Positions 9,024-58,223 of a stretch of 64,000 bases of DNA are shown here, piece by piece. The position numbers and the translations under genes were made by a program. Location of the stretch: positions 3,177,745 to 3,241,744 of the forward strand of contig NZ_CP121106.1 in NCBI RefSeq assembly GCF_029623755.1. Direction: 5' to 3'. The notes under the pieces are model-generated. The model saw nothing but the letters and a program-made list of their open reading frames with translations. It made no database searches and was not told the origin of the DNA. Position 1 is the stretch's first letter; the number at the start of each line of letters is the position of its first letter. Source of the DNA: Altererythrobacter sp. CAU 1644. GTDB taxonomy: Bacteria; Pseudomonadota; Alphaproteobacteria; Sphingomonadales; Sphingomonadaceae.

Positions 9024-9938
9024 CTAACGCGCCGCTTTGCGGCGCAGCCATGCTATGAGTTCATCGTTCCAGTCGGTATCGCTTGGATGTGGCTTGCGGA
9101 CTTGGATCGTCCGCCCTTCCTGCGCGTAGGCTCCGAGGCCACGCGAGGCGGCCAGCTCGCCGCCAGCATCATGATCGACGAACAGATGAAGCTCGGTCAC
9201 ACTCTCGGGAATGCTTACGAGACCGAAACGCTCATTCCCAAGGGTCGCCCAAACGGGAATGCCGGTGAGCGCATAGGCTGACAACGCGCTCTCGATCCCC
9301 TCGGCAAGGCCGAGCTTCCCGGAAACCGGAGCAAAGAGACGGACAGCAGCTTCACCGAGCGAGCCAAGCGCGCGCTTTGGCTTGTCGAAGGTGGCCTTGG
9401 TTGAAGCCTCGGTGGACAAAAACGTGCGGTGGATCGCGATCGGCCCCTCATCGAGGCTGACCGCCGCAATCATAGCGGGAAGAAAGCGGGCCTGTCCTTT
9501 CGGCCCGAGCGGCGTTTGCGGATGAAAGCGAAGAGCTGAAGATGCGGCCAGGATGCCGCGGCTCTCGAGGTAGGCCTTCGCCGGACTGGCACCCAATGGT
9601 TCCGCTTCGCGCCAGATCCTCAACGCTGCTGCCGAGGGTGTGCGTAGCCTTGTTGGCTCGATCTGATCCTCGGCCGAAGAACCCGAGAAAAACCTGGCCA
9701 CCTCGAAACCTTCGCGCGCCATTGCGGAAAGCACGCTCTGTTGATCGCAGCCCGCAAAGCAATGGAAGAGAATAGCCTTTCGGCCGAGCGTCACGCCGAG
9801 CGAAGGTGTGCGGTCATCATGCGCGGGACAGCACGCCATCCCCTTTGTGCCTGACCATTTGCCCCCTCGGCTTTCGCAGATGTTGCGGGCGGTGTCCTCA
9901 AGCGAGGTACGTGACAGGGTTGAATTCGAAACAGGCAT
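9024..9938 (-). CDS. CHC2-type zinc finger plus Toprim primase-like protein
   Basis: A 304-residue plasmid/element-type primase. The N-terminal zinc-binding part has Cys36/Cys37, His40, Cys60 and Cys64 (CCPAHDDRTPSL and FHCFAGC), like CHC2 fingers of DnaG-type primases. The Toprim fold shows the catalytic Glu213 (LAEGIESALSAY) and Asp255-x-Asp257 (LFVDHDAGG). It probably makes primers for element replication after excision or transfer. It is first in the leftward operon with the helicase (75-base gap) and the ParB-like gene. A possible promoter on the minus strand (TTGCCT, 17 bases, TAAATA) overlaps the SOS box at 10030-10044, which suggests LexA control of the whole operon. Confidence 0.83.
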   Translation of the reverse strand: MPVSNSTLSRTSLEDTARNICESRGGKWSGTKGMACCPAHDDRTPSLGVTLGRKAILFHCFAGCDQQSVLSAMAREGFEVARFFSGSSAEDQIEPTRLRTPSAAALRIWREAEPLGASPAKAYLESRGILAASSALRFHPQTPLGPKGQARFLPAMIAAVSLDEGPIAIHRTFLSTEASTKATFDKPKRALGSLGEAAVRLFAPVSGKLGLAEGIESALSAYALTGIPVWATLGNERFGLVSIPESVTELHLFVDHDAGGELAASRGLGAYAQEGRTIQVRKPHPSDTDWNDELIAWLRRKAAR

Positions 9939-10029: not shown

Positions 10030-10044
10030 GTTCTATTTATGTTC
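10030..10044. promoter_or_regulatory. Predicted LexA (SOS) box
   Basis: The site reads GTTC-TATTTAT-GTTC, an exact match to the alphaproteobacterial LexA consensus GTTC-N7-GTTC. It lies 35 bases upstream of the transglycosylase start and 92 bases from the start of the divergent primase operon. A binding site here would cover the likely -10 regions in both directions, the usual geometry for LexA repression. Confidence 0.75.
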
Positions 10045-56101: not shown

Positions 56102-56851
56102 TCAGGCGTCGACTTCGGCCGGCGGCTGTTCCATCGCGCCGACATCTTCACCCGAATCGGCCACCGCACCGCCACGACCGGAAGTCGCAGCCGCGCTGAC
56201 AGCATCACAATAGAGGCGCACGGCACGGGCCGCGTCGTCATTGCCCGGAACCGGAAAAGCGATGCCGGTCGGATCGACATTGGTGTCGAGCACCGCGATC
56301 ACCGGAATGCCGAGCACGGCCGCTTCCTTGATCGCGAGGTCTTCCTTGTTGGCGTCGATCACGAACATCACGTCCGGAATACCGCCCATGTCGCGGATGC
56401 CGCCGAGCGAAAGCTCGAGCTTGTCGCGTTCGCGGGTGAGCTGCAGAACTTCCTTCTTGGTGAAGCCCGAGGTGTCGCCCGAGAGCTGCTCTTCAAGCGT
56501 CTTGAGGCGCTTGATCGACTGCGAAATCGTCTTCCAGTTGGTGAGCATGCCGCCCAGCCACCGGTGGTTGACGAAGTGCTGGCCTGAAGCCTTTGCCGCC
56601 TGTGCGATCGGCTCCTGCGCCTGGCGCTTGGTGCCGACGAACAGGACCTTGCCGCCAGCGCGGACAGTCGATTCGACGAAGTCGAGCGCGCGCGCGAACA
56701 GCGGCACGGTCTGCGACAGGTCGATGATGTGAACACCGTTGCGCGCGCCGAAGATGTACGGCTTCATACGCGGGTTCCAGCGGTGCGTCTGGTGGCCGAA
56801 GTGTGCGCCGGCCTCGATCAATTGCTGCATGGTGACGGTGGGAGCCGCCAT
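56102..56851 (-). CDS. rpsB: 30S ribosomal protein uS2
   Basis: A 249-residue ribosomal protein. [22 protein letters not shown] and VHIIDLSQT are canonical, with [19 protein letters not shown] near the end. It is followed by tsf. A short Gly/Ala-rich acidic tail ([16 protein letters not shown]) is normal for sphingomonads as far as I can judge. Confidence 0.97.
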
Positions 56852-57199
56852 AATTCAATTCCTTTCCGGTTATACCTCTGGAAGGCTGGAACCTGCGGCG
56901 GAGATCCCGCCGCGAAGCACCGGTATGTGTGCCTTCCATGTGGATTTTCCGCCTCGGGAGAAGATCGACAATCGACCCTTTCCGCCCGCGGAAGGCGCGC
57001 CCTTAGCCGTTCATTTCGACAAAATCCAGCCTCAATTCGCCGCTCACGCGATTCCATTGGGCGCATTTTCGCCTTGACAGGTGAGAACAAAAAGAGAACA
57101 TATCGTTCTGGCGCGGAACTGACCGCGTCAATCCGGATTTTCCCCTAGTCGCGCACAGCTTGTCAACAGGCTTGTCCGCCCTGGTAGTGAGACGAAACG
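56852..57199. other. 348-base divergent regulatory region between rpsB and a small membrane gene
   Basis: No gene is supported here. The left half should hold the rpsB leader and promoter. The right half holds a TTGACA element and a perfect SOS box (listed apart). Confidence 0.65.
57074..57103 (+). promoter_or_regulatory. SOS-type promoter: TTGACA plus LexA box
   Basis: TTGACA (57074-57079) is a perfect -35. The box GAAC-AAAAAGA-GAAC at 57085-57099 exactly matches the alphaproteobacterial LexA site (GTTC-N7-GTTC read on the other strand) and fills the spacer up to a weak -10 (ACATAT, 57098-57103). LexA bound here would block RNA polymerase. The first ATG downstream is that of the small membrane gene, about 90 bases on. 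Confidence 0.75.
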
Positions 57200-57436
57200 A
57201 TGATTGCCTATCTGCTGGTTGCCCTGTTCGCTCTTGCCGCAGTTGCGGCCCTCTCCTGCCTCGCCGACAGCGCCATCCGCGCCGGGAACGCCTTGCGCAT
57301 GCTTCGTGCGGAAATGGCGCAGATTGCCAATCCCGCGCCCACCGTGGATGTCGTGAAGCTGCGGCCCCGGGCCGCCATGCAGCGTAGCGCTATGCGTCGC
57401 CCGGTACCGCGGCTGCCGCGCGCCGTTGCCGCTTGA
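57200..57436 (+). CDS. Small SOS-boxed inner membrane protein, 78 aa, unknown
   Basis: Not recognised. One membrane helix fills residues 2-22 (AYLLVALFALAAVAALSCL), followed by a short amphipathic part and a basic, proline-rich cytoplasmic or periplasmic tail ([20 protein letters not shown]). A perfect LexA box in a good promoter lies upstream and no other gene intervenes. Small SOS-induced membrane proteins in Caulobacter (SidA) block cell division, so a similar role is a reasonable guess, not shown by sequence. Its 3' end overlaps convergent pssA by 47 bases. Confidence 0.6.
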   Translation: MIAYLLVALFALAAVAALSCLADSAIRAGNALRMLRAEMAQIANPAPTVDVVKLRPRAAMQRSAMRRPVPRLPRAVAA

Positions 57437-58223
57437 TGCGGCCATATCGTACCAGGCCAACCGGCACGAGTGCGAGATAGACGACGCAAATCGCAATCAG
57501 CGTCCACCACGGTTCGAGTAGCAGCCCGCCCCCGAACAGGATCCCGAACAGCGCCAGGAACTCGAGGCGAATGTTGCGCCGAGGCCTGATCGACGACCAG
57601 CTCAGCGTCGCAATGTTGGAGATCAGCAGGAACGCGATCACCGCGACCCAGATGCCAAGATACAGCGGCGTACGAAACGCATCGATTCCCGTTTCCAGCC
57701 ACAGGTAGACTGGCAGGAAGGCGAGACCCGCGCCGACCGGAGCAGGTACGCCCGTCAGGAAACCGGCCGACTTGTGCGGCTGATCGTCCATGTCGATCCG
57801 CGCGTTGAAGCGCGCCAGTCGCAGGGCCATGCACACCGCGAATGCGAGCGAGGCGAACCAGCCGACGCGCGGAAGGTCCTGCAAGGCCCACATGAAGAGA
57901 ATCAAGGCCGGGGCCACACCGAACGAGACGTTGTCGGCGAGGCTGTCGAGCTCTGCGCCGAAGCGCGATTGGGCTTTGAGCAGGCGCGCGATCCTGCCGT
58001 CGATGCCGTCGAGGACCCCTGCGAGGATGATGGCGATGACAGCGAAATTCCATTCGCCGCTCACCGCAAACCGAATGCCGGTCAGTCCCGAGCAAAGCGC
58101 TGCTGCGGTGATGGCGTTCGGCAACATGGCGCGGAGCGTCAGCCCCCGCGTGCTCTTGCCCGATGGAACCTCGTCTTCCGCGGCCTTGGGGCCCACTCGC
58201 GGAAGGTCGGGTTCATCCATCAC
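57390..58223 (-). CDS. pssA: CDP-diacylglycerol-serine O-phosphatidyltransferase
   Basis: A 277-residue membrane enzyme making phosphatidylserine. The CDP-alcohol phosphotransferase motif is [29 protein letters not shown] (DG-x2-AR-x8-G-x3-D-x3-D). About eight membrane segments. It overlaps psd by four bases; together they make phosphatidylethanolamine. Confidence 0.94.

Follow-up and report, generated by a model that had tools for sequence, protein, structure and literature searches.

A small gene placed divergently from rpsB in Altererythrobacter sp. CAU 1644 probably encodes an SOS-induced membrane inhibitor of cell division, similar to SidA and SosA and equipped with a built-in degron. 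The window, i.e. the whole stretch of DNA that was analysed (64,000 nucleotides), is part of a 3.24-Mb genome. Comparison between related loci demonstrated, at the level of sequence, a LexA-type promoter, the coding status of the gene, an N-terminal helix in its product and selection on the Ala-Ala end. The features of the locus are listed in Table 1.

Table 1. Positions in the window of the small gene, its control region and its neighbours.
Feature	Position	Strand	Basis
-35 hexamer TTGACA	57074-57079	+	read from sequence
LexA box GAACAAAAAGAGAAC (other strand: GTTCN7GTTC)	57085-57099	+	motif scan
Weak -10-like hexamer GAACAT, sharing the second LexA half-site	57096-57101	+	read from sequence
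Small membrane protein gene, 78 codons	57200-57436	+	ORF list, homologues in 95/95 genus loci, purifying selection
Continuous helix predicted over residues 2-43 (approximately residues 2-22 in the membrane)	57203-57328	+	AlphaFold2, hydropathy
C-terminal Ala-Ala codons (candidate degron)	57428-57433	+	AA counts, wobble test, tmRNA tag likeness
rpsB, divergent neighbour	56102-56851	-	PF00318; TIGR01011 above cut-off
pssA, convergent neighbour	57390-58223	-	TIGR00473, 108.1 bits vs cut-off 107

In an earlier note on this DNA, a perfect LexA box was placed in the spacer of a TTGACA promoter, with a 78-residue single-helix protein encoded by the first gene and rpsB pointing the other way. The box is indeed perfect, its position within the spacer holds in part, since the second half-site forms the start of the -10-like hexamer, and the divergence from rpsB was recovered. 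By our own reading, GAACAT is separated from TTGACA by a 16-nt spacer; a consensus scan for sigma-70 promoters called none on the plus strand at the site of the LexA box. The small gene does not head a series of genes: the next one, pssA, points towards it and the 3′ ends of both overlap by 47 nt (57390-57436). Family matches placed pssA and psd to the right of the small gene, both convergent. The open frame comprises 81 codons and, because an in-frame stop lies only about three codons 5′ of the ATG, this start is nearly forced. A sigma-70-like promoter (TTGACA-18-GAAAAT, 57137-57166, minus strand), directed at rpsB, was observed beyond the LexA box. Near its position TGTCAA was found in 7 of the 95 genus loci described below; as the site is common to just these 7, a promoter of rpsB that would overlap with the LexA region was set aside.

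The motif GAACN7GAAC was found three times in the window, with 1.8 occurrences expected, and 96 times in the genome, vs 63 for a reversed control pattern. A single LexA box in the window is thus no more than chance by itself. As these counts were unremarkable, conservation was tested, and it is conservation that decides. For this, 100 genomes of the genus were drawn; the search located rpsB in 95, whose upstream regions were all read, and the other five were left out. An exact box was present in the gap between rpsB and pssA in all 95 loci and was preceded by TTGAC in each of them, with a gap of 6 nt in 92, 5 nt in two and 7 nt in one. Both GAAC half-sites were invariant, and most columns outside the promoter were near random. 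Counted up to 450 nt from the rpsB start, exact boxes occurred once in 19 loci, twice in 51 and three times in 25; two or three are therefore present in 76 of the 95 loci, and the window has one. In Caulobacter, approximately 97% of SOS promoters are described as having a single LexA box (PMC12700426). Several boxes, as in most loci of the genus, would be expected where leaky expression of the product is harmful. In the triple-box loci (25/95, among L049-L142), box starts were mostly spaced by about 33-34 and 24-25 nt, a spacing that might reflect cooperative binding of LexA.

On the other strand the box reads GTTCN7GTTC, which is given as the LexA motif of Alphaproteobacteria (PMC3323433) and of Caulobacter (PMC12700426). 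The CAU 1644 genome encodes a LexA that scores above the NCBIfam cut-off, with GTTCCACATTCGTTC upstream of its gene. The motif was also located upstream of recA, uvrA and a DNA-repair radical SAM gene (TIGR03916). Every LexA-regulon feature that was checked was found, as judged from sequence: the small gene carries a box in its promoter, and lexA is present with a box of its own. LexA control of the small gene appears close to certain on this comparative evidence, which supports the SOS control proposed earlier.

Other LexA-type boxes were observed in the genome. An AT-rich box, GAACATAAATAGAAC, lies at 10030-10044 of the window (minus strand), approximately 90 nt upstream of an ORF at 9456-9938 (minus strand) with a weak match to the DnaG zinc-finger region (TIGR01391, E 2e-5); the low end of this ORF is open in the stretch read. 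It is possibly an SOS-controlled primase-like gene. Two further ORFs with similar starts, L238:592-999 and L248:632-1000 (at approximately 3155000 and 2232600 of the CAU 1644 genome), stand beside LexA-type boxes. NCBIfam gave neither a name, and just 3′ of the start of the second a weak LexA C-terminal match was found (23.5 bits, below cut-off), which suggests that S24-type repressors belong to the SOS network or are controlled by it.

The small ORF is almost certainly coding, as judged from its conservation and substitution pattern. In an iterated profile search, a homologous ORF was found in the slot between rpsB and pssA in all 95 genus loci, each with an ATG start available and chosen (the selection rule preferred ATG). 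With the pssA overlap excluded, dN/dS was below 1 in 68 of the 69 usable nearest-neighbour pairs (of 75), with a median of 0.25; for the ten closest pairs the median was 0.11. When all 1103 pairs with an intermediate synonymous difference were taken, dN/dS had a median of 0.60 and 93% of values fell below 1, deep pairs being saturated and poorly aligned. The gene proposed in the earlier note is thus supported by both purifying selection and recurrence of the homologous ORF.

The same note held that SidA-like division inhibitors share a plan but no conserved sequence, so that the protein would be missed by homology searches. The comparison supports the SidA-like plan; the absence of conservation is partly wrong. 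Primary sequence does diverge fast, but position, promoter, helix and a C-terminus of small residues are kept in most of the bacterial family as sampled. A single-sequence search returned only seven proteins including the query, whereas the profile search returned 68, with readable product names of 'hypothetical' or 'uncharacterized'. No match to the window's small protein was obtained in Pfam or among solved structures. Seven Pfam families matched one or two of 64 members each (best E 0.0025), which was taken as chance. NCBIfam yielded nothing at E ≤0.01 for these 64 members and one match, at E 0.11, for the window's protein. An identity with SulA was rejected, the small protein being without a PF03846 match, and one of the YneA/ChiZ type was rejected as no LysM occurred in the Pfam matches of the 64 members (E ≤0.1). 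In the open-licence literature, no SOS division inhibitor of a sphingomonad or Erythrobacter was found among the matches listed. For a family member, Sphingopyxis granuli, induction of lexA and recA under anoxia has been described (PMC6472365); the available parts of that study contain no mention of the small gene.

Outside the genus, a set of 40 loci, covering 31 other genera of the bacterial family, was picked among genomes with a listed rpsB position. All 40 have an exact box and, after it, an ORF encoding an N-terminal membrane helix; in some, similarity of the small ORF had faded, and box and helix ORF were kept. At least five of the six letters of TTGACA preceded the box in 35 of these loci (exceptions L197, L201, L203, L205 and L212), and in L177, L193, L205 and L208 the unit was situated 0.8-1.2 kb from rpsB. 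Conservation, put forward earlier as a check, was thus found in 95/95 genus loci, at the same place, and in 40/40 of the others. Following a scan of 1500 nt from rpsB, 18 of 30 further, more distant loci of the bacterial family (26 genera) also had a box with a small membrane ORF; in one of the 18, L325, this ORF has 52 codons and is possibly miscalled. In the remaining 12, box and gene were missing from this 1500-nt stretch, in one of them because the contig ends 26 nt upstream.

As the N-terminal membrane helix is part of the ORF-calling rule outside the genus, the rule was applied to sites without a box. There it yielded an ORF at 10 sites out of 224 and at 122 out of 2000, vs 58 of 58 non-genus loci that have the box; several boxes at some loci raise the chance per locus somewhat above the non-box rate, yet it stays far from 58/58. 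Beyond the bacterial family, no exact box in either orientation was found within 1500 nt in 28 loci of other families of the order (three with less than 750 nt upstream). In 20 loci of the class, the first 1200 nt upstream of rpsB held no box in the same orientation; two of them (L222 and L232) carry an exact one facing the other way, and the profile search gave nothing better than E 0.59. Since the unit is absent from these outgroups of order and class, which are samples, LexA box and small gene beside rpsB appear confined to one bacterial family, the Sphingomonadaceae (in the GTDB sense, including Erythrobacter).

The single-helix protein described earlier was recovered as such: its N-terminal helix is followed by an Arg-rich tail ending in AVAA, and no second helix was found. 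Among the 95 genus proteins, which were picked by homology and not by helix, an N-terminal helix was present in all and a second in none. For 135 proteins (95 of the genus and 40 others) helix hydropathy was at least 1.79, again without a second helix, and the short N-terminal side had a net charge of 0 in 130. Over 153 proteins, length ranged from 52 to 112 residues (median 86; mostly 75-110), and net charge from residue 23 on had a median of +7, with values of 0 or below in three. AlphaFold2 (alignment A1, 64 sequences) predicted one helix over residues 2-43 and an unstructured tail, with a mean pLDDT of 82.7; averages by 10-residue block were 85-98 for the first five and 58-65 for the tail block, where no helix was predicted. 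The topology of membrane proteins follows the positive-inside rule. Because the N-terminal side is uncharged and the tail positive, the N-terminus most likely lies outside and the Arg-rich tail in the cytosol.

From these features we infer induction by DNA damage, a division target, a protease and a topology, which may be combined as follows. LexA, bound to one to three boxes, would cover the promoter. Upon DNA damage LexA would be cleaved, and a monocistronic mRNA would give a small single-span inner-membrane protein, whose helix would extend into the cytosol and end as a flexible Arg-rich tail. The protein would most likely restrain a late division step (the FtsW/FtsI/FtsN complex), as SidA does. 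The encoded Ala-Ala would then allow ClpXP to remove it, so that division resumes; should the tail face out, a Prc/CtpA-type protease would clear it instead. The sequence of the protein itself names no division target. A search for SulA in the CAU 1644 genome found none, which leaves the role of division inhibitor open. A gene that is LexA-controlled, encodes a single helix, often has more boxes than approximately 97% of the SOS promoters in Caulobacter and resides in a genome without SulA fits a late-division inhibitor of the SidA/SosA/YneA functional class, and inhibition of division by its product is judged fairly probable on these grounds.

The same plan, a small LexA-controlled single-helix protein, is that of TisB. 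Single-helix SOS proteins may also be membrane toxins, and a product of the TisB/DinQ kind would depolarise the membrane and slow growth, division not being blocked. DinQ is likewise small, LexA-controlled and single-helix (PMC3567139), and a toxic product would suit multiple LexA boxes. At 52-112 residues, with a helix predicted well beyond the membrane, the proteins found here are no short pore peptides, however, and their C-terminal end is under selection. No sign of an antisense antitoxin was seen, because a search for leader or antitoxin RNAs found no Rfam family in 56700-57500 and the opposing promoter-like site (TGTCAA) is rarely common to relatives. A membrane-active peptide is therefore regarded as rather unlikely.

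A low probability is also given to an SOS-induced regulator of another membrane process, such as envelope stress, a protease, respiration or phospholipid synthesis. The neighbours pssA and psd make phospholipid and would agree with such a role, and SOS has been reported to be linked to envelope regulation in Caulobacter (PMC13384398). Against this, box and small gene are kept in four loci in which pssA was not found in the stretch examined (L205, L314, L316 and L334).

The brake on division proposed above would have to be released, and here the C-terminus is informative. Ala-Ala ends were counted in 133 of 153 products, the window's protein included. Alanine makes up 17.8% of the tails and the AA dipeptide has a frequency of 2.8% within them; among controls, AA ends occurred in three of 49 long ORFs of the window and in 18 of the 122 membrane ORFs called there at sites without a box. 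The end lies opposite pssA, whose mostly Lys and Arg residues there speak for a by-product of the opposite strand; that Ala-Ala is such a by-product, with no function as a degron, is unlikely in our estimate. Of 134 loci with pssA, 127 have 3′ ends that overlap by over 9 nt, and 125 keep an identical overlap phase, though the length of the overlap varies. In this fixed phase, an Ala codon of the small gene requires the pssA codon on the other strand to have G as its wobble base. Once codon context was included, this G was present in 131 of 138 loci for each of the final two residues (expected 87.8, sd 5.3, for the last and 72.8, sd 5.6, for the penultimate). Opposite residue -3 no excess was seen (78 vs 80.6 expected); opposite residue -4, where pssA likewise mostly has Arg codons, G was in deficit (37/135 vs 50.2 expected), as it was opposite residue -5 (38 vs 62.4 expected), and opposite residue -8 there was a small excess (70 vs 61.9 expected). 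The test without codon context gave 117 and 118 of 124, vs 62.6 and 53.1 expected. These statistics treat related genomes as independent, so that the sd is too small; adjacent positions still differ sharply.

The bias of pssA wobble positions to G opposite both alanines points to selection on the Ala-Ala end. In favour of a by-product, the AA end falls from 125/138 in the fixed-phase overlap to 8/15 elsewhere (Fisher p = 8e-4). Against a by-product, it was kept in three of four loci without pssA and in three of four in another phase, yet in two of seven with an overlap of at most 9 nt. In 12 of the 15 proteins outside the fixed-phase overlap the last two residues are only Ala, Gly or Ser. The figure of 8/15 means that the overlap itself contributes, or that those lineages have relaxed. 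Selection on the last two residues, with the overlap helping somewhat, appears to be the best account of these sequences. The convergent overlap of small gene and pssA (57390-57436 and the homologous loci) is also a natural case of double coding. A fourth alternative, a LexA-induced antisense RNA over the pssA 3′ end that acts as transcript rather than protein, is suggested by the frequency of overlaps above 9 nt and is very improbable, as amino acids outside the overlap are under purifying selection and the gene is retained where pssA was not found (four loci) or overlaps by at most 9 nt (seven loci).

ClpX contacts ssrA-type degrons at their C-terminal end, an Ala-Ala that terminates a flexible tail. 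The tmRNA (ssrA) tag of CAU 1644, ANDNEALALAA, has the same ...AA terminus as the small protein, whose Ala-Ala stands on a predicted unstructured tail; the tag is added to stalled peptides, whereas the Ala-Ala studied here is encoded in the gene. A general account of such degrons is available (PMC8138137). The Ala-Ala end is accordingly termed a candidate degron, and we infer its use as one. More tentatively, the protein may be a self-timing checkpoint inhibitor of the whole bacterial family, in which an ssrA-mimic end would let ClpXP clear a membrane brake from the cytosolic side, the degron having been selected despite fixing synonymous pssA codons.

SOS division inhibitors in the literature cited come from few lineages and are mutually unrelated. 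Removal for recovery is described for SulA via Lon and for YneA via CtpA and DdcP (PMC13396833). A large and common bacterial family would now gain a strong candidate, for which nature supplies many divergent variants to compare, and its two-codon end suggests an answer, accessible to direct test, to the question of how a checkpoint in the membrane gets switched off.

Among known systems, SidA of Caulobacter crescentus, also an alphaproteobacterium, is likewise small, LexA-controlled and located in the inner membrane, and it binds FtsW (PMC4211646). SidA has 29 residues, whereas members of the family described here have 52-112, carry an Arg-rich tail and in most cases end in Ala-Ala. DidA, also of Caulobacter, is a division inhibitor induced by DNA damage and SOS-independent (PMC4211646), whereas the small gene has LexA boxes. 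YneA of Bacillus subtilis is SOS-induced, a single-span FtsW inhibitor and subject to fast turnover (PMC13396833); it has an extracellular LysM domain, in contrast to the small protein family, where none was found (64 members). SosA of Staphylococcus aureus, SOS-induced and with 77 residues and an N-terminal helix, has a C-terminus proposed as turnover control (PMC6851548). According to the same source, this C-terminus lies outside and clearance probably occurs by CtpA via the C-terminus, whereas the small protein is predicted to have its C-terminus inside. The small protein is filed as a new family in the manner of the small SOS membrane inhibitors, from which its encoded candidate degron distinguishes it.
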